Shown one piece after another: positions 214 through 12,776 of a DNA stretch of 48,141 bases. Location of the stretch: positions 1-48,141 of the forward strand of contig VIKI01000018.1 of the NCBI GenBank assembly GCA_008080595.1, in the 5' to 3' direction. The notes beneath the pieces are model-generated. The model was given only the letters and a program-made list of their open reading frames with translations, had not been told where the DNA came from and did not search any database. A program made the translations under genes and the position numbers. Source of the DNA: Comamonadaceae bacterium. Its GTDB lineage: Bacteria; Pseudomonadota; Gammaproteobacteria; Burkholderiales; Burkholderiaceae_C. Positions within the stretch are counted from its first letter, which is position 1; every line of letters starts with the position of its first letter.

Positions 214-1551
214 TCAAGTGCATTTGATAGACCCGTTTTGCCTGGAAGTCAGCCACACCAGAAGCAACACGGGCACTCCCAGTAAAGCCGTCGCCACAAA
301 AAAATTGGCATATCCAAAGGCATCCACATACCGGCCCGAATAACCCGCCAGAAACTTGGGAAACAACAGCATCATTGAGCTGAACAGCGCGTACTGTGTG
401 GCTGAGTAATTCACATTGGTCAAGCCTGATAAGTAGGCAATAAACGCAGCAGAGGCGATGCCGCTGGACAGGTTGTCCGCCGAGATCACAAAAATCAGGC
501 CATTGAGGTCATGGCCACGTGTGCTTAGGGCGGCAAACAGCAGGTTGCTGGCCGCACTCAGTGCCGCACCCAGCATCAGCACACGCATCACACCCAGACG
601 CATGGACAACACGCCGCCGACAAAGGCCCCCAATAGCGTCATGATGACCCCAAACACCTTGGTGACGGCTGCCACCTCATCCTTGCTGTAGCCCATGTCT
701 ACATAAAACGGGTTAGCCATGATGCCCATCACCACGTCACTGATGCGATAGGTTGCAATCAATGCCAGGATCAGCACGGCTTGCCAGCGGTAGCGTTGCA
801 CAAAGTCGGCAAAGGGCTCAACCAATGCGCCACGCAACCAGTCCCAGGCATTTTTGGCTGGCGGCAGGCTGCGATGCAGGGGTTCGCTGGAGAGCAGCAC
901 CGTCAACACGCCCGGCATCATGCTGGCCGCCATGACCAAATAGGCGAAATGCCATGCGCCATGCTGGTAGCCAGCGGTATCGGCCACTTCGGCCCTGGCG
1001 GCCAGCCACAACACACCGGCTCCGGCCCAGATCATGGCCAGTCGGTAGCCGGTTTGGTACGCTGCGGCCAGCGCGGCCTGGCGATCCATGTCGGCAGACT
1101 CAATGCGAAACGCATCCAGTGCAATGTCTTGCGTGGCCGAGCCAAACGCCACCGCCAGAGCACCCCAAACCACCGGCAGCAGGGCCACTTTGGGATCATT
1201 GAACGACATGGCCACCAAACCGATCATGATGGCGATTTGCGACATCAGCAGCCAACTGCGCCTGCGCCCCATGACGCGGGTCAGTACAGGAATGGGCATG
1301 CGATCCACCAACGGAGCCCAGACCCATTTGAACGCATAGGCCAGCCCGACCCAACTCAGATAACCAATGGTGGTGCGGTCGATGCCCGCTTCGCGCAACC
1401 AGAAACTCAAGGTACCCAGCACCAGCAACAAAGGTAAACCTGCAGAAAAACCGAGCGAGAGCATTCGCAAAGAGGCTGGTTCAAGGTAGACCTTGAAAGC
1501 GGTCAGCCAAGGCCGTGAATCGGGCAAAACAGGTGTCGTTGAAATAGTCAT
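214..1551 (-). CDS. ampG: AmpG-like muropeptide MFS permease
   Basis: 12-TM MFS-like protein with AmpG-type N-terminus (SLGFSAGLPLLLVLGTLSFWLREAGIDRTTIGYLSWVGLAYAFKWVWAPLVDR). Confidence 0.85.
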   Translation of the reverse strand: MTISTTPVLPDSRPWLTAFKVYLEPASLRMLSLGFSAGLPLLLVLGTLSFWLREAGIDRTTIGYLSWVGLAYAFKWVWAPLVDRMPIPVLTRVMGRRRSWLLMSQIAIMIGLVAMSFNDPKVALLPVVWGALAVAFGSATQDIALDAFRIESADMDRQAALAAAYQTGYRLAMIWAGAGVLWLAARAEVADTAGYQHGAWHFAYLVMAASMMPGVLTVLLSSEPLHRSLPPAKNAWDWLRGALVEPFADFVQRYRWQAVLILALIATYRISDVVMGIMANPFYVDMGYSKDEVAAVTKVFGVIMTLLGAFVGGVLSMRLGVMRVLMLGAALSAASNLLFAALSTRGHDLNGLIFVISADNLSSGIASAAFIAYLSGLTNVNYSATQYALFSSMMLLFPKFLAGYSGRYVDAFGYANFFVATALLGVPVLLLVWLTSRQNGSIKCT

Positions 1552-1661
1552 TGAAAGATAATAATCAACTCCCAAGAAGATTTATCGCCATCATTGATTA
1601 AATGAGTTAACCGAATTCGTCAACTTATTCACCAATGCTTGGTTTGATTCGAGCTAATGTT

Positions 1662-1762: not shown

Positions 1763-2236
1763 ATGACCCACAGCACATTCCAAACATATTTTCGTCAACA
1801 TCAGGTTCCACCCCAGTGGCTATCGGTGCTTCGTGCCATGGCTTTGGTGCTTGAGGACTCTCTGGAGCCCGAGGACTTGAAAGGTATTTTTTTCAAAATT
1901 GGAGAGCAAATGGCACAGTCCATTGAAGCCCAATTTGCCGACATCGAAACTCTGGACGACCTTGCCACCCAGATCAATGCCCACTGGGACACCATGCATT
2001 GGGGTTGGGTCTCGCTGCGCGAACTCGATGATGCCATTGGCATTGAGCACCATGCCGCACCACTGGCCGAAGCTTTTGGTGACGCGGCTCTGCCGTGGTC
2101 AGTGGGCTTGCTTGAGGGGTTTTACCAGACAGTTTTTAAAGTGCTGGGTGCCGGTGACTCCATGCGGATTGAAACCGTGCAAGAGCAAGTGTCAGACATG
2201 TTGATCCCTCTGCGCTTTGGTCAACCCCACGCTTGA
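1763..2236 (+). CDS. bcsD: Cellulose synthase subunit D-like protein (BcsD)
   Basis: 157 aa; BcsD-like sequence (FFKIGEQMAQSI...WDTMHWGWVSLRELDDAIGIEHHAAPL); first gene of a bcs-like operon. Confidence 0.8.
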   Translation: MTHSTFQTYFRQHQVPPQWLSVLRAMALVLEDSLEPEDLKGIFFKIGEQMAQSIEAQFADIETLDDLATQINAHWDTMHWGWVSLRELDDAIGIEHHAAPLAEAFGDAALPWSVGLLEGFYQTVFKVLGAGDSMRIETVQEQVSDMLIPLRFGQPHA

Positions 2237-2246
2237 TGCCAAGATC

Positions 2247-3071
2247 ATGATCAAATCCCAAGACAAGTTGGCACCGATTTTCAGATCACTGCATCCCGAC
2301 GAATCCGTGATGACCAAGGCGGTCAGCGCCAGCGCACAAGAAGCTGCCGAGAAATGGCCTTTGTTCAGAGTCTTGGCACCCAGAAAAACCATGAGCACAC
2401 CGGCTTTGTCTGAAGTTGACAAGCAAAACCGGCTGAGCCCCCATTCTGAACGCTTGATGCCCCAGCCATCAACCCTGGCTGTCGTCAGCCTGGGTGAGAA
2501 GCTGGCTGATGGACTGACCAAAATGACTGGTCGCAATAAACCGCTGAACCGCCAGCCCAAACGGGCAGCCCAAGTCGCCGAACAAGCCACCACAGCACAG
2601 GCCAAGCCAAGCGCCAAACCGACCACGCCTGAGCGGCATGCGCAGCAGGTTAGCGAGAAGCTCGCGGCATCATTGTCTGAATTCGCAAATGAACACAAAG
2701 CCCAGCCAGCCCCAGTCACCGAGACACCTGCAGTTTTGGCAGCGGCACATGGCCCTACGGCCAGCGTGACGCCTTCAAGAGCGGTTCTTCCTCCACAAGC
2801 CACCAGAAAATCGCCTGCACCGACCAAAGCCCCCAAAGAAGCTGTCAGTGAACCAGTCCTCCACAAAGCGCCCGTTCAACCAATTGCCGCTGCGCACAAA
2901 ACACCCGAGCCAGCAGCCCCGATCCAACAACCGCAAACGACAGGTTCGATCAAATCCTTGTTCAACAAACTTCAAAATCCGGTCAATGCATCCCCCCTAC
3001 CCGAAGCAGCGACTGAGGCCACAGCCACAGTTAAAGCCCCGGCTTTTTTAAATCGGTTGTTTAAAAAATGA
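2247..3071 (+). CDS. bcsP: Proline/alanine-rich BcsP-like cellulose biosynthesis scaffold protein
   Basis: Low-complexity Pro/Ala/Lys-rich protein with N-terminal EKWPLFRVLAPRK and C-terminal SIKSLFNKL / AFLNRLFKK motifs; lies between bcsD and bcsQ and overlaps bcsQ by ATGA. Confidence 0.65.
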   Translation: MIKSQDKLAPIFRSLHPDESVMTKAVSASAQEAAEKWPLFRVLAPRKTMSTPALSEVDKQNRLSPHSERLMPQPSTLAVVSLGEKLADGLTKMTGRNKPLNRQPKRAAQVAEQATTAQAKPSAKPTTPERHAQQVSEKLAASLSEFANEHKAQPAPVTETPAVLAAAHGPTASVTPSRAVLPPQATRKSPAPTKAPKEAVSEPVLHKAPVQPIAAAHKTPEPAAPIQQPQTTGSIKSLFNKLQNPVNASPLPEAATEATATVKAPAFLNRLFKK

Positions 3072-3832
3072 GTGTCATTGGTGTCGTTTCTATGAAGGGT
3101 GGAGTGGGCAAAACATCCACCACCGCCAACCTTGCCGCCGCCCTGGGTAGCCAGTTGGGTGATGAACGGGTGTACACGGTGGACCTAGACCCGCAAAATG
3201 CGTTGCACTGGCACTTTGGCTTGTTTGATCAAGTTGACTCCGGCGTGTGTGAAATGTCTTTGCAAGGGGACAACTGGCGCCAAGCCATGCTCAAGAGCGA
3301 CTACAACCTGCGCTGCCTGCCTTACGGGAACGTTACGGAATCCAATCGGGAAGCCTTTGAAGACCTGTTAAGCCAATCGAATCACTGGGTGGCCGACCAG
3401 CTCCAGGTCGCCAAACTGACAGGCGACCTGATGGTCGTCATCGATTCACCACCCGGGCCCTCGGTTTACCTGAAACAGGTATGCGAGTGTGCGGATTTGC
3501 TTCTGATTGTGCTGCTGGCAGATGCCGGGTCCTACGCCACCATTCCAGAAATGGAAACATGGCTTGATGAGTACACCACCAAAAGACCCGATTTGAAGGT
3601 GTATTACGTCCTGAATCAGATCGACCGCAGCGAAGCACTCAACCGCGATACCGCCGCTTTTTTGCATCGCCAACTCAAACCACGACTCTGCCCTATTGAC
3701 CTTCATAATGACGAAGCCGTTGCTGAAGCCCTGGCTTTTCAGCAACCCGTTGTCAGCTATGAGCCCAACAGTCAAGCCAGCCATGATTTCGCCCGCTTGG
3801 CCAAGTGGGCCATCAGTACGCTGAACAAATGA
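3068..3832 (+). CDS. bcsQ: BcsQ, ParA/MinD-like ATPase (copy 1)
   Basis: Walker A KGGVGKTS, VDLDPQNALHWHFG, VIDSPPGPSVYL; operon context. Confidence 0.88.
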   Translation: MSVIGVVSMKGGVGKTSTTANLAAALGSQLGDERVYTVDLDPQNALHWHFGLFDQVDSGVCEMSLQGDNWRQAMLKSDYNLRCLPYGNVTESNREAFEDLLSQSNHWVADQLQVAKLTGDLMVVIDSPPGPSVYLKQVCECADLLLIVLLADAGSYATIPEMETWLDEYTTKRPDLKVYYVLNQIDRSEALNRDTAAFLHRQLKPRLCPIDLHNDEAVAEALAFQQPVVSYEPNSQASHDFARLAKWAISTLNK

Positions 3833-5934
3833 CACCGCTGCGGCTACTCTCACTTTGGCGTGAACGCTGGGGCAAGGAACTTCCTGAAAATCGGATGCAC
3901 CCTTATCAAAAGGGCGGTTTCGGCGCTTGGGGAGAGCGCACCAGTGAATCCATTGCAGGCTCCATACCTGTCCTGGGTTTGTTCGCAGTCATGTCGTTTG
4001 CTATTCTGAGCTTGATTTTGCTTGGTGTGACGTTTTCCTTGACCGACCAGTACGTGCTGTCGGCATTTGTATTGATCGCCACCCTTTCGATCAGACGCTA
4101 CCAGGGCATGATCCCTACCCTGGTGTTAATGGGTTTCGCCATTATCACCACCACACGCTACCTTTACTGGCGTTTTGATAGCACCTTGGATCCAGCGTTT
4201 CAACTGGATTTTTTCATTGCTTTATTGGTATGGTTTATCGAACTGTATGGGGTTTGTCTTTTTTCAGTGGTCGTACTCAATGGCCTATGGCCGATCAAGC
4301 AAATAACCAAGTCGCTACCAGAAGATACGGCAACTTGGCCTAAAGTCGCAGTATTTATCTGTGCTGCCGACCATTCTGAAGATGACATCCTGCGCAGTTT
4401 GTCTGCACTGAAGCTCACTGACTGGCCATTGACCAAACTGAGCCTGACCGTGGTGGACAACGAAGAGCGTGTTGGCCTGCTGCACAAGCTGACAGCCATG
4501 AATGTCAGTTATTTGCCACCGCCCATCACTGCTGACGAAAAATTTACCCAGAGGCTAAACCGGGCCATGACCGATGCCGACTCTGAATTGGCCGTTATTT
4601 TGAGCGCAGGCCAAATGCCTGCACCCGATTTTTTAAAAGAAAGCTCGGGATGGTTTGTCGTAGATAGCAGCTTGGGTCTGGTTGCTACTCCAAATCATTT
4701 TTTGCTTCCTGAACCAAATTCTCAATTGCTTGATCGACTTGCGGGACAACCGCATCCTGCAGAAGTCATGATCACTCGTGTTTCCCATTTTTTGAAAGTA
4801 GGTGGTGTTCCGATTGATGCCATGTCGGCTCAAAACCATATTGCCCAAAAACTGCACAATTTTGGATTTGGGCATGCGTATTGGCTTCAAGACGTAGAGA
4901 CGGCTTATCGGATTCACCAACCTCTTGCCAGAAAAGCCTTGGGGCTGAGAATGTGGGTTGCGCGTGCATGCGAAGTTTTGGACTTTTACCAACCCATTTT
5001 GCGGTATACGCTACTCACACTACCATTGCTTTATTTGCTGGCAGATTGGCAACCCATGGATGCCCCCCTTGAGCTGTGGATCGCCTATGCCACCCCCCAT
5101 TTGGTTCAGGCCTATGCATTATTCAGCCGTACCAATTCAGCCTTTCGTTGGCCACTCTGGCTGGAGCTGCGTGAAGGCATATTTGCCACCTACATGCTGA
5201 TTCTGACTTTCTTCACCGCTGTCTGGACTTGGCTTCGCAACCGGAAATCGCCCTATGCCGATACCCTATCATCGAGTGAACTCAAAGAGCTTCGTTTAAG
5301 CCGACTCGATGGCTTGCTGCTCGGGCTTCATGGCATGGCGCTGGCCGAAGGCTTGCTCATGCTGCTGCAAGCCGATCAGGCCCTACTGCCGAGCATCAGC
5401 TTCTACATGGCATGGTCAGGCATTGTGCTGTTGTTGCTGGTTGCCAAATTTGCCGTCTACCAAGAAGCTGCCGAAGTGGCCCGGCAAAAAGCGCGGCTGA
5501 GCGCGATGCCGGGAATGATCCGCTTACCCAACAACCGCACCATGACGTGCCAGACCCAAAACTTTCCACAACTTGAACTGGTGTTAGATTGTTCGACAAC
5601 ACCAAGTGTGAAGAGCGGTCAACGCCTCAAGCTGTCGATTTTTCACGCCCTGGATGAACTTGCCGTGGATGTCACAGTCGTCCTGAGCGCAGCCACTTCC
5701 TTGACGGTCAAGGTAGACCCCGCTTGGCAAGGGCCCTACCGCCGGTTCAGCCAGGCCGTGTTTGCGCGTGGCCCCGATTGGCCAGACTGGTTACCCAACC
5801 AACATGTCGACAAGATCATTCCGCAATGGCTGGTTCTTGTGTGTTCCTGGCCCTTGAACTTAGTGGCCAAATGGTTGCACCGGTTATCCAAAAAACCAAG
5901 CACACAGGCTGTCAGCAGCCCTCCCACGAAATGA
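3829..5934 (+). CDS. BcsA-like membrane protein with degenerate GT2 and PilZ domains (probable pseudo-synthase)
   Basis: BcsA-type N-terminal TM region (TTRYLYWRFDSTL), GWF...TPNHF...P.P landmarks and C-terminal TM + PilZ-like region, but DDG, DxD, TED and QxxRW motifs are absent. ATGA overlaps with both neighbours. Confidence 0.85.
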   Translation: MTPLRLLSLWRERWGKELPENRMHPYQKGGFGAWGERTSESIAGSIPVLGLFAVMSFAILSLILLGVTFSLTDQYVLSAFVLIATLSIRRYQGMIPTLVLMGFAIITTTRYLYWRFDSTLDPAFQLDFFIALLVWFIELYGVCLFSVVVLNGLWPIKQITKSLPEDTATWPKVAVFICAADHSEDDILRSLSALKLTDWPLTKLSLTVVDNEERVGLLHKLTAMNVSYLPPPITADEKFTQRLNRAMTDADSELAVILSAGQMPAPDFLKESSGWFVVDSSLGLVATPNHFLLPEPNSQLLDRLAGQPHPAEVMITRVSHFLKVGGVPIDAMSAQNHIAQKLHNFGFGHAYWLQDVETAYRIHQPLARKALGLRMWVARACEVLDFYQPILRYTLLTLPLLYLLADWQPMDAPLELWIAYATPHLVQAYALFSRTNSAFRWPLWLELREGIFATYMLILTFFTAVWTWLRNRKSPYADTLSSSELKELRLSRLDGLLLGLHGMALAEGLLMLLQADQALLPSISFYMAWSGIVLLLLVAKFAVYQEAAEVARQKARLSAMPGMIRLPNNRTMTCQTQNFPQLELVLDCSTTPSVKSGQRLKLSIFHALDELAVDVTVVLSAATSLTVKVDPAWQGPYRRFSQAVFARGPDWPDWLPNQHVDKIIPQWLVLVCSWPLNLVAKWLHRLSKKPSTQAVSSPPTK

Positions 5935-8246
5935 AAGTACCCAACATGACATCACCATTTGAAATTTCTCCAGTCCGTCAACTCACTCTTGGATTTACCG
6001 CGCTGGCCGTGGCAATTTCGTGCTCACTTTTCAGCTCACCGGTGATGGCCAAGGCCAAAACCAGCAAGTCAAAGGCAGTCATCGAAGAGGTGATTGAGAC
6101 TAGCCCTGCAACCGCACCCAAACAAAGAGTGGTCTCTCTGAGTTTCAAACAACTGGGTGCTTGGTCTGCCGTTAACCTGAAAGGGGCTGACGGATCGAGA
6201 ACGCTGAATTTTTCTGTCAGATCCGATGAAATGGTGGTGGGTGCCAAGCTGAAGTTGCTATACGACTATTCACCCGCATTGATCCCTGAATTGAGCCACT
6301 TAAGAATTCTCCTCAATGAACGTGTAGCTGCGGTAGAAGGCTTGCCCCAAGGCAAAAACCTGGGTAATTCACGTGAGATTGATCTTGATCCCCGGCAAAT
6401 GACCGATGTGAATTTTTTACGTTTTAATCTGATTGGTCATTACACCCGCCAATGCGAGGATCCATTCCATTCGTCGCTATGGCTCACCTTGAGTGACCTG
6501 GGCCGTCTGGAACTGACGCTGGCCCCCAAATCAATGGTCAATGACCTGAAGTTCCTACCTGCCCCATTTTTCGACAAACGTGACGATGCCACGTTGAAAT
6601 TGCCCTTTGTCTTTTCCAACACGCCAACGGCTGGCACCGTCAAGGCGGCAGGTATTGTGGCTTCATGGTTCAGCATTCAAGCCGGCAATCGAGGTGCACA
6701 GTTTCCAGTGTCCCAAAATACCCTGCCTGATGGCAATGCCGTGGTTTTTCTTCAAGGCAGTGAAAAAATCCCTGGTGTTGAAAGCCCAACCGGCCCGACC
6801 CTGAGTATCAGCAACCATCCGACCAACCCGTTGGCCAAGTTGCTGGTGGTCACCGGCAGCAATGACGACGAAATCTTGCGCTCGGCACGTGCCCTTGCCT
6901 TGATCAGCAGCACCCTGGCAGGGCCATCGTTGACCATCACCAAAGAAACTGAAACCACCCCACGCAAGCCCTACGATGCCCCCGCTTGGATACCCTCGGA
7001 TCGTCCGGTGCGTTTTGGTGAAATTGCCCGCCCGGAAGAGCTCCGTGCTCAGGGTTGGTATCCAGAAATTATTCGAGTCAATTACCGCGTGTCGCCCGAC
7101 ATTTTCACGTGGAGAACACCTGGGGTGCCGCTGAACCTGAAATACCGGTATACCCGCCTGCCTGAACACAAGGCATCCAGCCTGAATGTCGGTCTGAACA
7201 ATGACTTTATCCATGCCTTACCGCTGAATTACCCCTACAAAAACCCCGATGAAATCAACCGGCTCAATCTTGCTGGCAGTAACAATGTCTCCAAGCGATC
7301 TGATTTGTTGTTTATTCCACCCTATGCGGTTGGTGGTCGTGACCAATTGCAACTGGGCTACTACTTTGACATTTTGAAACACGGCGAATGTCAAAACATG
7401 CCACCCGAGAATTTGGTGGGAGCGATTGACCCTGAATCCACTCTGGATTTCAGCGCTTTCCCACACTATGTGGCACTGCCCAATCTGGCTTATTTTTCCA
7501 ATATTGGATTTCCCTTCACCCGTTTGGCTGACCTGTCAGAAACTGCAGTGGTTATGCCAGACCGCCCTAACAGCCATGAACTTGGCATGTACCTGACCTT
7601 GATGGGGCGCATGGGCGAAGCCACTGGCTACCCGGTCTTGAACCATGCGCTGACCACCGCTGCGGATATTGAAAAAATGGCGGATCGGGATGTCCTGGTG
7701 ATTGGTTCTGCCAACAGCCAACCGCTCCTGAGCAAATGGGCTGACAAATTGCCAGTGGTGCAAATCAATGGCGAACGACATGTCCGTGAGCCAGAGGTCA
7801 CATGGAAACCCATCTACCGCTGGGAACAACAAGACAATCAATTTACCCCCTTGCCCAAAGGCGATTTGAATTTATCCAACAGTGGTGACCTTACCACCCT
7901 GATGGCCTTTGAGTCCCCCATGAAAGCTCAACGCAGTGTGGTCATGGTTCACTCAGACCGCTCTCCTGATTTGCAAAAAATCACGGATGTACTGACCAAC
8001 ATCGAACGCATCAGCACCATCAAAGGTGATTTGGTGGTATTTAATGAGAAAGACGTCAACCACACCAAAGTCAGTGCGACTTACTATGTGGGGGCTTTGC
8101 CATTCATGAACAAATTGCAATGGCTGTTTGCAGATCATCCTCTCTGGGTGGGGGGGCTCGTCGTGCTCGTTTGCTTGCTATTGGCTGTTTCTGCTTACCG
8201 CCCCTTGCGCAAGTTGCTCAGCCGTCCGGCCAAAGTGAAACTCTAA
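5931..8246 (+). CDS. bcsB: BcsB, cellulose synthase periplasmic subunit
   Basis: Signal sequence, BcsB-like domains (FVFSNTPTAGTVKAAGIVASWFSIQAG...; LPDGNAVVFLQG) and a C-terminal TM anchor (WVGGLVVLVCLLLAVSAYRPLRKLL). Confidence 0.88.
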   Translation: MKVPNMTSPFEISPVRQLTLGFTALAVAISCSLFSSPVMAKAKTSKSKAVIEEVIETSPATAPKQRVVSLSFKQLGAWSAVNLKGADGSRTLNFSVRSDEMVVGAKLKLLYDYSPALIPELSHLRILLNERVAAVEGLPQGKNLGNSREIDLDPRQMTDVNFLRFNLIGHYTRQCEDPFHSSLWLTLSDLGRLELTLAPKSMVNDLKFLPAPFFDKRDDATLKLPFVFSNTPTAGTVKAAGIVASWFSIQAGNRGAQFPVSQNTLPDGNAVVFLQGSEKIPGVESPTGPTLSISNHPTNPLAKLLVVTGSNDDEILRSARALALISSTLAGPSLTITKETETTPRKPYDAPAWIPSDRPVRFGEIARPEELRAQGWYPEIIRVNYRVSPDIFTWRTPGVPLNLKYRYTRLPEHKASSLNVGLNNDFIHALPLNYPYKNPDEINRLNLAGSNNVSKRSDLLFIPPYAVGGRDQLQLGYYFDILKHGECQNMPPENLVGAIDPESTLDFSAFPHYVALPNLAYFSNIGFPFTRLADLSETAVVMPDRPNSHELGMYLTLMGRMGEATGYPVLNHALTTAADIEKMADRDVLVIGSANSQPLLSKWADKLPVVQINGERHVREPEVTWKPIYRWEQQDNQFTPLPKGDLNLSNSGDLTTLMAFESPMKAQRSVVMVHSDRSPDLQKITDVLTNIERISTIKGDLVVFNEKDVNHTKVSATYYVGALPFMNKLQWLFADHPLWVGGLVVLVCLLLAVSAYRPLRKLLSRPAKVKL

Positions 8247-8265
8247 GTTGCGATTGCGATCTACT

Positions 8266-9015
8266 ATGCATGTCATTGCTTTCATTTCCGGCAAGGGTGG
8301 TGTGGGTAAAACCACCATGGCAGCCAACGTGGCGGTGGCGCTGGCCCAACGTCAAAAACGTGTTTTATTGATTGATCTGGATCCGCAAAATGCCCAGCGT
8401 TTTCATTTGGGAATGGATCCAGAGGAAATCGCAGGCTTGGTGCGCGAAGGCATCAAACTCACCTCGATCTTTGAGAGCCCTTTTGGTGTCAGCTTCATCC
8501 CGTTTGGGCGCGTCAGCGAACCTGAGCTGGAAGAGTTCGAGTCACAGCTTAAATTCAATCCGCATTGGCTGGATCAAGGCCTGCGCTCACTCGGCGCGGA
8601 TATTTTTGACTATGTGGTGCTTGACACACCACCGGGGCCGTCGGTTTTTTTGCGCCAAGCACTTGAAGCCGCCAACAAAGCCATGGTGGTGTTGCTGGCG
8701 GATGCCGCATCGTTTGCCACCATTGACAAGATATCCTCACTGGTTGAGCAATACACCGCTGATCGCAGTGACTTTGCTGGCGCGTACCTGTTGATCAATC
8801 AAATGCCGCTCAATGGCAAATTGGGGCATCAAGTCCGAACAGCGTTGTACGCCAACTATGCAGACCATCTGGTGCCCGCCTCGGTTCACCGCGATGCACG
8901 GGTCTCACAGGCACTGGCCTTTGAGCGACCGGTACTCCAGTACGAGCCCGGCTGCAAAGCCAGCCTAGACATCCAATATGTAGCCGAATGGCTACTCAAC
9001 AGCACCGAGACATGA
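8266..9015 (+). CDS. bcsQ: BcsQ, ParA/MinD-like ATPase (copy 2)
   Basis: Walker A GKGGVGKTT, LIDLDPQNAQRFHLGM, VLDTPPGPSVFLRQ; paralogous to 3068-3832. Confidence 0.87.
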   Translation: MHVIAFISGKGGVGKTTMAANVAVALAQRQKRVLLIDLDPQNAQRFHLGMDPEEIAGLVREGIKLTSIFESPFGVSFIPFGRVSEPELEEFESQLKFNPHWLDQGLRSLGADIFDYVVLDTPPGPSVFLRQALEAANKAMVVLLADAASFATIDKISSLVEQYTADRSDFAGAYLLINQMPLNGKLGHQVRTALYANYADHLVPASVHRDARVSQALAFERPVLQYEPGCKASLDIQYVAEWLLNSTET

Positions 9016-10127
9016 TCCCACGCGGGTGGCGGATTTTCCTGGTTTTTTGTCTGATGGCATGGAACCTATCGCCCGCCACCGCCCAACCCCTGAAGGCCAT
9101 GGGCTATCTGGCTTGGTGGATGCCACAGAGTTGGCAAACCCTGCCGCTGCAAGAGATTGATCGGCTCTTTTTCTTTGAACTCAAAGTCGACGCATCAGGT
9201 GCCATTTCAGAGCGCCATGGCTGGCCAGAACAATGGGGTGAACTGCAACAGGCCACCCAAAGGGAAAAAGTTCCCCTGGATTTGACCCTGACGTTGTTCG
9301 ATTCTGAAACCTTCAATCGGCTCTTCTCATCCCCACAAGCCGTCAACAAGCTGCTGACAGACAGCCTTGAATTGGCCGCGCATCCGAATGTGAGCGGCTT
9401 GCATCTGGATTTTGAAATTTATGGCGGCGCATCCAGCAAGGCCATCACCAGCTACAAGGCATTTTTGGCCCAACTCTCACAACAGCTGCGTCGGCTGTCG
9501 CCCTCGCGAAATTTGTCGGTTTTTCTTCCGGTACAAACGGATGATGCACTCTACGATGCACCTAGCCTGGGTTTGATGGATTGGGTGGTCTCGCAAAGTT
9601 ACGACGCGCATTACCGCAGCAGCAAAAATGCGGGGCCTGTGGCACCTTTGGCCGGACAAGACGGGCTCACGTGGGAAAAAGCAATGTCTGATGCGCTGGG
9701 ACTGGGCGTACCCAGGAACCGCCTGATTTTGACTTTCCCCTTGTATGGATACGAATGGATTGTGAAAGACAAGCAAGCCCGCAGCCCGACTCAGCAACCT
9801 GGGCTCACCACCACTTTTTCAGACGTGGACAAAGAATTCTTGCCCGATGTTCAAATCAGCATCACCCAACGGGTTCGGCAATTTGGCGCAACCCATGACC
9901 CCTCCAGCGGATCGTCTTACTATCAATTTCAAAACGAACAAGGCCAACAAGTGCAGGGATGGTTTGAAGACTGGTGGTCTCTGAGCCGAAAAATTGATTT
10001 TGTCAAAGCAGAAAAGCTCGGCGGACTCGCCTTTTTTGTTTTTGGCTATGACAAAGAGCAACTTCTCGGATATTACTTGTATCAAAAGAGACCGAAAAGC
10101 CTGATTGATTTGATCAATCTGCAATAA
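9012..10127 (+). CDS. Secreted GH18-like glycoside hydrolase
   Basis: N-terminal signal peptide then TIM-barrel strands (MGYLAWWMPQSW...), VSGLHLDFEIYG retaining the final D-x-E of DxxDxDxE, QSYDAHY, LTFPLYGYEW; ATGA overlap with bcsQ2. Confidence 0.75.
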   Translation: MIPRGWRIFLVFCLMAWNLSPATAQPLKAMGYLAWWMPQSWQTLPLQEIDRLFFFELKVDASGAISERHGWPEQWGELQQATQREKVPLDLTLTLFDSETFNRLFSSPQAVNKLLTDSLELAAHPNVSGLHLDFEIYGGASSKAITSYKAFLAQLSQQLRRLSPSRNLSVFLPVQTDDALYDAPSLGLMDWVVSQSYDAHYRSSKNAGPVAPLAGQDGLTWEKAMSDALGLGVPRNRLILTFPLYGYEWIVKDKQARSPTQQPGLTTTFSDVDKEFLPDVQISITQRVRQFGATHDPSSGSSYYQFQNEQGQQVQGWFEDWWSLSRKIDFVKAEKLGGLAFFVFGYDKEQLLGYYLYQKRPKSLIDLINLQ

Positions 10128-10232
10128 CCACTGAAACACCCCACCCGACAAAACCCGGCTTCTGTGCAGCAATGCACGCCGGAAGTAAACACATTCAGGC
10201 ATGATAGAGGCCTAGATTTACAAGGAGTGCGG

Positions 10233-12776
10233 GTGTATTCATCTATTTCCTTGCCCCCCTCTGAGGGGCAAACGAACTCTCTGAGCTTGCTGCCCAAAGA
10301 CGCGCAACATCAAAGTCAAGTCAAGAGCTTCAGTTGGCCTGCGCCGCCGTACGCCATTTACACCGCGGCGGAACCTTGGGTTGAGCCACAAATATGTGAA
10401 TTGGAGGGCTTGAATGGGGCCATTCGACGCTGCACCCTGGTGTCCGTCACACCTGCCGAGCAAACCATCCTGATTCAGATTGAACACAGCAAAACGCCGG
10501 TTCCGGTAACTTTTTCGCAGTTCCGCCGTCTGGCGCTGAAAAAACCGATTTATCCACAGGAAATCATCAGCACCGAGCAATTTGCAGACATTTTGGGTTA
10601 CCGCGCCACCGTGCAATACAACCTGGTGCTGGAAAACGGCAACACCGTCACCGGTACGACGGTAGGTTATGTCGAAACCCATTTCGGCTTGTTTTTGTTC
10701 ACCCCACTGGATGACCATGGCTCGGTTGAACGGGTGTTTGTGCCGCGCGAAGCCTTCACCCGCGTCACTCTGGGTGACCACATTGGCCAGATGCTGGTGG
10801 AGCAAAAAGTCGTCACCCCGCAGCAGGTTGAAGATGCCGCCACCGAGCAGAACAGTTTGCGCAAACGCAAGCTAGGCGACTATTTGGTGGACAACGCCGT
10901 GGTGTCACCTGACCAATTGATGCTGGCACTGGATCAGCAATCCAAAATGCCGATGATCCGAGTGGGTGAAGCCTTGACCCGATTGGGCTACATCGACGAT
11001 GACCAACTCGCACAAGCACTAGCCAAACAAAAAACCGAGCGCTCGGTGCCGCTGGGCCAATTGCTGGTGAATATGGGCTTTCTGACCCGTGCTGACCTGA
11101 ACACCGCGCTGGCCCGCAAGATGGGCTACCCCGTAGTGGATGTCACCCAGTTCCCGATTGATGAAGCAGCCTTGAAGAAGGTGTCTGCCAACATGGCGCA
11201 ACGCCTCAATATCATGCCACTGCTGTGGCGCGACAAGTTGCTGGTGATTGCTGCGGTTGACCCGACCCAACGCAAGATGCTCGAAGAGCTTGAGTTCTCA
11301 GTGCAAGGGCGGGTGATCGCCACCCTGGGGGATGAAGTACAAATCACCCAGGCGATCAAAAATGCTTATGAAAAAATGGGGGTACTTGCATGGCCCTCAG
11401 AAGAAGACTTGCTCACCCCTGCCTCTGATGGTCAACACCAGGCCAGTGGCACTCAATTGCTGGAATCGATGCAGCTGCAAGATGTCGGCCTGGAAGAAGA
11501 GCTCGATGATGGCCAGCAAATTGCCCAATCCGACAACACCTTGGTACGCCTGATCAACACCATGATCATTGAGGCCCACGCCCGTGGGGTGTCAGACATT
11601 CATGTCGAGTCCCAACCCAAACGCGCAAAAGTGCGCATCCGTTTTCGCAAAGACGGCCTGCTCTCGCCCTACCTGGAACTGCCTCACACCTACCGCGCCG
11701 CCTTGGTGGCACGCCTGAAAATCATGGCCGATCTGGACATCTCGGAGCGGCGCAAGCCACAAGATGGCAAGATTGATTTCAGCAAGTTTTCCCAACGTCA
11801 CCGGCTGGAGTTGCGCATTGCCACCATCCCCACGGCCAATGGGCTGGAAGACGTGGTGATGCGCCTGCTGGCCTCCAGCAAGCCCATTGCGATAGAAAAG
11901 CTCGGACTCTCGGCAGACAATCTGGAGCAACTGACCCAGTCGGTCAGTCGCCCCTACGGCATGGTGCTGTGTGTGGGCCCCACCGGCTCTGGAAAAACCA
12001 CCACGCTGCACTCGGTGCTGGGTTTTCTGAACACCCCCGAGCGCAAAATCTGGACGGCTGAAGACCCGATTGAAATCACCCAGCCTGATTTGCGCCAGGT
12101 GCAGGTCAACCCCAAAATTGACTGGACTTTTGCCAAAGCGCTGCGCTCATTTTTGCGCGCCGACCCCGACATCATCATGGTCGGTGAAATCCGTGATGCC
12201 GAAACCGCCCAGATCGCCATCGAAGCCTCACTGACCGGGCATCTGGTGCTGTCAACCTTGCACACCAACAGCGCGGCGGAAACCGTCACCCGCCTGGTTG
12301 ACATGGGCATGGATCCGTTCAACTTTGCCGACTCCTTGCTGGCGGTGCTGGCCCAACGTTTGGCGCGGCGCTTTTGCAACGAATGCCGAACCGTGCAGCC
12401 CGCCTCAGAGGAAACCATTGACGAATGGGTCTCCGACTATCTGCACTCTTTTCCTGAGAGTTGGCGGCCTACCCGCGACGATGTGCTGGCGCAATGGATG
12501 GCGCAATACGGCCAAAAAGGCTGGCTCAGCCACCACCAGGCCCCCGGCTGCAGCCAATGCCTGGGCACCGGCATGTCGGGCCGCGTGGGCCTGCATGAGC
12601 TGCTGCGCATCACGCCGGAAATCCGCCGCCTGATCCAAACCGGGGCCCGGTCTGAAGAAATCCAGCATGCCGCTTTTCACACCGGCTTGTTTCGCACCCT
12701 GCGCCAGGACGGCATCACCAAAGTGCTGGCCGGCCTGACCAGCATTGAAGAAATTCGAGCCAACAGCAATGTCTGA
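10233..12776 (+). CDS. GspE/PilB/MshE-family secretion ATPase with several N-terminal MshEN-like motifs
   Basis: Walker A GPTGSGKTT, Asp box/Walker B region FLRADPDIIMVGEIRDAETA, C-terminal CxxC pairs; GTG start after AAGGAG. Confidence 0.88.
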   Translation: MYSSISLPPSEGQTNSLSLLPKDAQHQSQVKSFSWPAPPYAIYTAAEPWVEPQICELEGLNGAIRRCTLVSVTPAEQTILIQIEHSKTPVPVTFSQFRRLALKKPIYPQEIISTEQFADILGYRATVQYNLVLENGNTVTGTTVGYVETHFGLFLFTPLDDHGSVERVFVPREAFTRVTLGDHIGQMLVEQKVVTPQQVEDAATEQNSLRKRKLGDYLVDNAVVSPDQLMLALDQQSKMPMIRVGEALTRLGYIDDDQLAQALAKQKTERSVPLGQLLVNMGFLTRADLNTALARKMGYPVVDVTQFPIDEAALKKVSANMAQRLNIMPLLWRDKLLVIAAVDPTQRKMLEELEFSVQGRVIATLGDEVQITQAIKNAYEKMGVLAWPSEEDLLTPASDGQHQASGTQLLESMQLQDVGLEEELDDGQQIAQSDNTLVRLINTMIIEAHARGVSDIHVESQPKRAKVRIRFRKDGLLSPYLELPHTYRAALVARLKIMADLDISERRKPQDGKIDFSKFSQRHRLELRIATIPTANGLEDVVMRLLASSKPIAIEKLGLSADNLEQLTQSVSRPYGMVLCVGPTGSGKTTTLHSVLGFLNTPERKIWTAEDPIEITQPDLRQVQVNPKIDWTFAKALRSFLRADPDIIMVGEIRDAETAQIAIEASLTGHLVLSTLHTNSAAETVTRLVDMGMDPFNFADSLLAVLAQRLARRFCNECRTVQPASEETIDEWVSDYLHSFPESWRPTRDDVLAQWMAQYGQKGWLSHHQAPGCSQCLGTGMSGRVGLHELLRITPEIRRLIQTGARSEEIQHAAFHTGLFRTLRQDGITKVLAGLTSIEEIRANSNV

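Follow-up and report, generated by a model that had tools for sequence, protein, structure and literature searches.

The locus described here raises the question of what a set of cellulose-secretion genes may be doing when the cellulose synthase encoded among them has lost its catalytic motifs. It lies within a window of 48,141 nucleotides (the whole stretch of DNA analysed) from a Comamonadaceae genome, referred to below as G000. A preliminary description had recognised seven plus-strand genes with ATGA overlaps and without a canonical BcsA, BcsZ or BcsC, and had proposed either an accessory complex for a canonical BcsA/BcsC encoded elsewhere or a diverged machine that puts the Bcs scaffold to use for a different polymer or function. 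We hypothesize, with a probability of about 0.62, that the Bcs scaffold has been repurposed and works with a PgaC-like GT2 to make another polymer.

Results

Organization of the operon

The seven genes at 1763-10127 (Table 1) are all open reading frames, and their coordinates, the ATGA overlaps at 3068-3071, 3829-3832, 5931-5934 and 9012-9015, and the 10 nt between the bcsD stop and the bcsP ATG (2236/2247) were confirmed; the bcsB/bcsQ2 junction measures 19 nt. Gene families were assigned with Pfam/NCBIfam profiles, a search in which, as proposed, no canonical BcsA, BcsZ or BcsC was detected among the genes of the operon. The solved structures nearest to the GH18 protein are YdhD and chitinases. 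A search for the same gene order in other genomes, suggested in the preliminary description, found it kept in relatives; of the 15 loci checked, 14 also have the ATGA overlap between bcsQ1 and the bcsA-like gene, and consequently the arrangement did not arise by chance. A GspE/PilB-like ATPase gene starts 36 nt after the GH18 stop and occupies the same place in the complete same-genus genome G122, but not at locus L039; it is a lineage-specific neighbor whose membership of the operon is uncertain.

Table 1. Genes of the operon and its flanks, with window positions and the evidence for each assignment
Feature	Position	Strand	Evidence
AmpG-like permease, divergently oriented, at the left edge of the operon	214..1575	-	ORF; divergent from bcsD in G122, L039 and L048 as well
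BcsD (cytoplasmic cellulose scaffold subunit)	1763..2236	+	PF03500 E 6.3e-17, 62.2 bits, cut-off 23
BcsP-like proline-rich scaffold protein, N-terminal EKWPLFRVLAPRK motif	2247..3071	+	Weak NF040718 match, E 0.046; position; homologues in related loci
BcsQ1, MinD/ParA-like ATPase, KGGVGKT intact	3068..3832	+	TIGR03371 225 bits, cut-off 157.85
Pseudo-BcsA, full-length, without TED, FFCG, QxxRW, DxD; PilZ DxSxxG changed to NFP	3829..5934	+	Motif comparison, AF2 model, Foldseek, dN/dS 0.23
BcsB, periplasmic membrane-anchored subunit	5931..8246	+	PF03170 5.7e-212; NF008323 775 bits, cut-off 750
BcsQ2, second MinD/ParA-like ATPase	8266..9015	+	TIGR03371 179.8 bits, cut-off 157.85; ATG at 8266
GH18 glycosidase, xLDFE catalytic Glu retained	9012..10127	+	PF00704 1.3e-25; PDB 3cz8 9.7e-14
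GspE/PilB-like ATPase with MshEN c-di-GMP-binding repeats	10164..12776	+	PF00437 1.2e-120; NF053729 90 bits

The BcsA-like protein

Judging from its sequence, the BcsA-like protein of the window is a cellulose synthase that lacks an active site and is catalytically dead. Its 701-aa reading frame is intact, and yet no glycosyltransferase match was obtained in Pfam, the score against TIGR03030 is 182 bits for a cut-off of 699, the motif positions are occupied by VDNE, LSAGQ and MSAQN, and QxxRW is absent; the prospect that it might prove to be a normal active BcsA was accordingly not borne out. The TED, FFCG and QxxRW motifs are missing in all 17 pseudo-BcsA copies and kept in all 34 canonical BcsAs compared. 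Likewise, in 17/17 copies the D and S of the PilZ motif DxSxxG are replaced by N and P, so that the canonical c-di-GMP-binding motif is not present. An AF2 model combined with Foldseek suggests that the GT fold is retained; with a pTM of 0.51 the placement of the domains is poor and global TM-scores are low (0.27-0.29), and for this reason only Foldseek E-values and domain folds were used.

Origin of the operon and canonical genes elsewhere

In the BcsA tree the pseudo-BcsAs group together as one clade within canonical BcsA (SH-aLRT 100), and their BcsB partners are monophyletic (100/100) in a tree rebuilt without two distant outgroups that gave long branches. The stronger BcsA-profile matches across the order were considered as further pseudo-BcsAs and rejected, as all 29 loci examined have intact motifs. 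The best explanation is that a type I bcs operon underwent a single duplication in Burkholderiales and gave rise to the present operon, the duplicated copy having lost BcsA catalysis, the GH8 BcsZ and the BcsC barrel while keeping BcsD/BcsP, two BcsQ ATPases, BcsB and the dead BcsA.

Searches of G000 (89% complete) and of complete G122 yielded neither a canonical BcsA nor a BcsC, which disfavors the accessory complex initially considered. Canonical BcsA was not found in 12 of the 17 pseudo-BcsA genomes, G122 among them, and the other five carry a canonical operon too. The BcsC barrel (PF05420) is absent in the seven genomes tested, including G000 and G122, and several related operons keep a BcsC N-terminal TPR stub, the TPR proteins encoded after BcsB aligning to BcsC N-termini. 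A GH8 BcsZ, present in canonical sister operons, was not detected in the window operon or in the related pseudo-BcsA loci. The proviso that bcsZ or bcsC might belong to the same transcript outside the window did not materialize, BcsC being absent from the genome and BcsZ having been looked for within the operon. G212 no longer has the canonical bcs operon where it normally lies, with 6 nt left between the flanking genes, and both the GT2 and the pseudo-BcsA operon remain.

A second locus and its linkage to the operon

Contig 140 of G000 encodes BcsE, a TPR outer-membrane protein, an intact PgaC-like GT2, deacetylases and AlgX/AlgF-type acetylation genes, a locus that supports the earlier proposal of a diverged machine serving another polymer. 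The GT2 retains the DDG, DxD, ED and QxxRW motifs (IDDG, MDGD, AEDCD, QRYRW) expected of a processive synthase and is PgaC/IcaA-like (E 2.5e-66), scoring 224.3 bits against TIGR03937, below the equivalog cut-off of 422.3. The TPR protein resembles PgaA weakly (TIGR03939, 3e-5, 22 bits for a cut-off of 366.65, in the TPR part only), and a PDB profile search likewise matched only TPR. BcsE, a known Bcs subunit, was identified by PF10995, and its RxxD I-site (RxGD) is kept in 9/9 aligned BcsEs.

A GT2 with at least 71% identity occurs in 14 of the 17 pseudo-BcsA genomes, compared with 2 of 400 drawn from across the order, one being the window's own genome. BcsE is present in the same 14 genomes, where it is mostly encoded with the GT2, and absent from the same three; in these three MAGs, in which the GT2 was not found, assemblies may be incomplete, and the G209 contig ends beside the deacetylase. 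The co-occurrence of GT2 and pseudo-BcsA is confounded by shared ancestry. As for physical linkage, GT2, deacetylase, BcsD, P, Q1, pseudo-BcsA and B are encoded in one apparent operon in G131/L053, a deacetylase gene lies immediately upstream of bcsD at L047, and GT2 and pseudo-BcsA lie no more than about 20 kb apart on one contig in G201, G203, G213 and G214. In the environmental isolate Noviherbaspirillum galbum 17J57-3 (locus L051), in which no canonical BcsA was found, the GT2 is likewise some 20 kb from the pseudo-BcsA locus. G000 has the two loci on separate contigs, and in G122 they are 63 kb apart. The GT2 module of G204-207, G211 and G460 is accompanied by a canonical bcs operon, and therefore the oldest association of the module is with something other than the dead BcsA.

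Discussion

We hypothesize that the Bcs scaffold operon works with the intact GT2 of the second locus, the dead BcsA serving as a membrane docking platform, and possibly as a channel, that would join BcsB on the outside and BcsP, BcsD and BcsQ on the inside to the GT2. Control by c-di-GMP would be exerted via BcsE, with its conserved RxGD site, instead of the altered PilZ domain, the trimming role of BcsZ would be taken by the GH18 enzyme and that of BcsC by the TPR porin. The product would probably be a GlcNAc-type exopolysaccharide, partly de-N-acetylated and O-acetylated; the physical partnership of GT2 and scaffold, the identity of the polymer and its export route are what we infer. A more specific version, in which the dead BcsA is an obligate non-catalytic subunit of a hetero-complex with the PgaC-like GT2 of another product, perhaps lending its transmembrane channel and the BcsB crown to the GT2 polymer, and in which c-di-GMP sensing has moved from PilZ to BcsE, is put forward tentatively.

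Other readings must be weighed against this partnership. The GT2 module might make its own polymer independently, the pseudo-BcsA complex having an unlinked task as a membrane or cell-pole scaffold or in other export, as the separate loci in G000 and G122 and a distant GT2-porin-deacetylase module without adjoining Bcs genes in G659 would allow; we regard this as unlikely, given that the genes form a single apparent operon in G131, with L047 a probable second case, the repeated retention of both after canonical bcs loss, and the encoding of a Bcs subunit, BcsE, with the GT2 in most genomes. The operon could instead assist a canonical cellulose synthase encoded elsewhere, in a regulatory or structural capacity and through mixed BcsA/pseudo-BcsA complexes, in line with the cellulose-scaffold nature of BcsD, BcsP and BcsQ and with the genomes carrying both operons. 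The many genomes without canonical BcsA, complete G122 included, the failure to find BcsC wherever tested, and G212, which lost the canonical operon cleanly and kept the other, refute it as a general rule and make it very improbable here.

Two further readings concern the dead BcsA itself. It may still catalyse transfer from another sugar nucleotide in a reorganised active site, considering that the first Asp of DDG is invariant in 17/17 copies, that DxD is still present at L041, L042, L051, L052 and L053, and that the modelled GT fold seems to be retained; with the catalytic base (TED) and QxxRW lost from every copy, and DxD from most, the window's included, there is little likelihood of this. 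Alternatively, the operon could be decaying, with the pseudo-BcsA a relic heading for loss, since catalytic motifs are gone and the protein evolves faster than any other large subunit except BcsP (dN/dS 0.23 at dS about 1, compared with 0.05 for BcsB). Nevertheless, this value indicates purifying selection, the frame is full-length and free of internal stops in 17/17 copies, translational coupling is kept, the clade has invariant residues of its own (NFP, WPxWLP, LWRERW), and BcsB and both BcsQ are under strong constraint, making decay extremely unlikely.

Among known systems, the beta-proteobacterial type I and hybrid bcs operons, with the order bcsD-P-Q-A-B-Z-C (Sana et al. 2024, as cited by PMC11470070), form the sister clade in the tree and share BcsD, BcsP, BcsQ, BcsB, gene order and translational coupling with the window system. 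The latter has the BcsB and BcsD of a type I operon but no catalytic BcsA, BcsC barrel or in-operon BcsZ, a second BcsQ and GH18 are added, and the synthase would be supplied by another GT2. Similarity to PNAG (pga) systems extends to the GT2, whose nearest NCBIfam model is PgaC/IcaA, the weakly PgaA-like TPR protein and the deacetylase; however, the GT2 remains under the PgaC cut-off (224 vs 422 bits), no PgaB-type protein was recognised, and a Bcs scaffold and BcsE are present. The stalk clusters of iron-oxidising bacteria (bcsB-xagBCD, Kato 2015, PMC4643136; sfz/sfb cluster, PMC8250860), compared by description only, likewise encode a BcsB-family protein with a non-BcsA, XagB-like GT2, but their gene set differs, and the available portions of these accounts describe no dead BcsA, BcsD, BcsP or BcsQ. 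The BcsA-like Orphan proteins of pseudomonads are also BcsA relatives outside cellulose operons, proposed in the title of PMC10237404 to be active cyclic-glucan synthases, whereas the window protein appears to be a catalytically dead scaffold subunit in a bcs-type operon. As in acetylated cellulose (Wss) and alginate acetylation modules, AlgX, AlgF and MBOAT homologues sit near the pseudo-BcsA operon or the GT2 locus, although no alginate or cellulose synthase is served here; only distant MBOAT homologues occur in the window's genome, and therefore O-acetylation is less complete there than in relatives. No description of the gene set was found in the literature, covered largely without subscription journals.

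If our reading is true, a pseudo-synthase has been kept as a scaffold, for which we found no described case in bacterial exopolysaccharide secretion. The operon would constitute a natural experiment in which the scaffold functions of BcsB, BcsD, BcsP, BcsQ and BcsE are separated from cellulose catalysis, and it offers a way to test whether another polymer can be handled by the Bcs envelope machine. Accordingly, the presence of bcsB, bcsD or bcsQ in Rhodoferax-, Polaromonas- and Noviherbaspirillum-like genomes should not be taken as proof of cellulose production.

Results

Reading frames at all seven coordinates (table) bear out the seven genes and the junctions of the preliminary description, and the view that the BcsA-like protein is not canonical likewise stands, given its lost motifs (TED, FFCG, QxxRW) and a score well below the TIGR03030 (BcsA profile) cut-off. 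By profile search no Pfam glycosyltransferase match was found in this protein, and E. coli BcsA (7lby) is alignable to most of its length (7e-46). When 17 pseudo-BcsAs (the window's protein and 16 relatives) were compared with 34 canonical BcsAs of Burkholderiales, the catalytic motifs were intact in all 34, whereas TED, FFCG and QxxRW were missing in every pseudo-BcsA. In the window's copy LDDG reads VDNE, FDCDH reads LSAGQ and VTEDA reads MSAQN, FFCG is absent and the QxxRW site is deleted; this protein is CATALYTICALLY dead, as judged by its sequence. Among the catalytic motifs, the one residue that never varies in the 17 is the leading Asp of DDG; all 17 have N for D and P for S in the PilZ motif DxSxxG; R110, Y111, W114, R115, E138, P399, P423 and E449 are core residues common to both groups. 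DxD is kept in a few copies (L041 9977-12124, L042 9929-12112, L051 4919-7063, L052 4965-7148, L053 10001-12148), and its retention in five, with TED and QxxRW lost in all, suggests an order of motif loss. In the AF2 model (mean pLDDT 73.8, pTM 0.51) the GT-like and PilZ domains are reasonably confident and the top Foldseek matches are all BcsA (E about 3e-32), but only domain folds are claimed, since global TM-scores are low.

Genes of the window operon and of the second locus (L054, contig 140 of the window's genome)
Gene or product	Location	Strand	Evidence
bcsD	1763-2236	+	Pfam/NCBIfam above cut-off
bcsP	2247-3071	+	weak profile match (E 0.046); homologues at same position in relatives
bcsQ1	3068-3832	+	Pfam/NCBIfam above cut-off
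bcsA-like	3829-5934	+	182 bits TIGR03030 (cut-off 699); alignment to E. coli BcsA
bcsB	5931-8246	+	Pfam/NCBIfam above cut-off
bcsQ2	8266-9015	+	Pfam/NCBIfam above cut-off
GH18	9012-10127	+	Pfam/NCBIfam above cut-off; xLDFE kept
BcsE	L054		PF10995 6.6e-77
TPR outer-membrane-type protein	L054		weakly PgaA-like, 3e-5
GT2	L054		full set of processive motifs; best NCBIfam match PgaC/IcaA (2.5e-66), under the cut-off
Polysaccharide deacetylase	L054		HxxxH and DxE present
Second deacetylase-like protein, AlgF, two AlgX-type proteins	L054		

The canonical sister operon is ordered (D)-P-Q1-BcsA-BcsB-BcsZ(GH8)-BcsC-Q2. As had been proposed for the window, BcsZ was not found in pseudo-BcsA operons, and PF05420, the BcsC barrel profile, was absent from all seven pseudo-BcsA-only genomes searched, including the complete same-genus genome G122. 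BcsC is missing or, at several loci, represented by a TPR stub alignable to its N-terminal residues (in L053, 36% over 257 aa, 5e-40). In Noviherbaspirillum galbum a BcsC-related 899-aa TPR protein without a BCSC_C barrel match follows BcsB (L051 9416-12115), a possible intermediate in BcsC loss. MBOAT and AlgX-like genes lie downstream of the operon in most relatives. In the window, a GspE/PilB-like ATPase that carries MshEN c-di-GMP-binding repeats and a DUF4388-like region is encoded 36 nt past GH18 (10164-12776, +), as in G122, with MBOAT/AlgX instead in L039; an MshEN-synthase link has precedent in the EpsE-N/GT2 fusion that PMC8250860 describes in stalk clusters.

A scan of GTDB species genomes gave 15 pseudo-BcsA loci, one on the G131 contig, which with the window's genome and G122 makes 17 genomes; among the named carriers are MAGs of Rhodoferax, Polaromonas, Hydrogenophaga and Comamonadaceae and a single isolate, N. 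galbum. Pseudo-BcsAs form one clade (SH-aLRT 100) nested within canonical BcsA; the BcsAs of G204-207 and G211 are its sister group, followed by that of G460. The BcsBs of the pseudo-BcsA operons also form one clade (100/100). In the window-G122 comparison (65% identity) dN/dS is 0.23 for pseudo-BcsA, at dS about 1, and 0.05 for BcsB, 0.07 and 0.035 for the two BcsQs and 0.044 for GT2; pseudo-BcsA is under relaxed selection but remains constrained. No internal stops were found in any copy of the 17 genomes, and the bcsQ1/pseudo-bcsA ATGA overlap is preserved in 14 of 15 loci: the gene is conserved, not decaying.

Discussion

By the defining features tested, the window operon does not qualify as a cellulose operon, though it derives from one. 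The preliminary description had offered either an accessory complex for a canonical BcsA/BcsC encoded elsewhere or a diverged machine with another polymer or function. Canonical BcsA occurs in only 5 of the 17 genomes, GT2 orthologues (at least 71% identity) in 14, and in just two of 400 genomes drawn order-wide, the window's own and G460; BcsE is found in these 14 genomes and in G460, and the three MAGs without GT2 lack BcsE too. In G201, G203, G213 and G214 GT2 lies on the pseudo-BcsA contig, within a distance of about 20 kb, and in G122 an L054-type locus lies 63 kb from the scaffold operon. In G131 the genes for a TPR protein, GT2, deacetylase, BcsD, BcsP, BcsQ1, pseudo-BcsA, BcsB, TPR, BcsQ2, MBOAT and AlgX run in the same direction and apparently form one operon. 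In G212 the canonical-operon flanks (1135-aa, 367-aa and 212-aa proteins) adjoin the deacetylase across a 6-nt gap; the bcs operon was lost from this site, and the adjacent GT2 module and, elsewhere, the pseudo-BcsA operon remain. Because of this co-occurrence, linkage and bcs loss, GT2 is preferred over canonical BcsA as partner, but shared ancestry accounts for some of the association, since the module also accompanies canonical bcs in six genomes, and in G659 a distant GT2 module stands without Bcs genes next to it.

In one MAG (L140 4332-6320, G201 contig 262) a stop breaks BcsE into two reading frames, which is either real or an assembly error. The G659 module is a gammaproteobacterial operon (L163/L164, G659:C1:214000-248000) encoding a 1136-aa TPR protein with a weak PgaA barrel match, a GT2 (45-48% identical), a deacetylase and, upstream at the BcsE position, a 490-aa protein not assigned to a family; no Bcs genes were recognised beside it.

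The pairing of BcsB with a non-BcsA GT2 has a precedent in the stalk clusters of iron oxidisers (PMC4643136, PMC8250860); the literature searches turned up no dead BcsA combined with a complete BcsD/P/Q scaffold, which would be the new aspect. We hypothesize that GT2 would polymerise and extrude the chain, with the dead BcsA anchoring BcsB outside and BcsP/D/Q inside, BcsE providing c-di-GMP control, deacetylases and AlgX/AlgF modifying the polymer, GH18 trimming it and the TPR protein serving export. The retained parts fit PMC11470070, because BcsP N-termini model there as BcsR-like plugs on BcsA and BcsE binds c-di-GMP via RxxD. The structures nearest to the window GH18 are YdhD and chitinases, and the combination of GH18, a PgaC-like GT2 and deacetylases points to a putative GlcNAc-type polymer.
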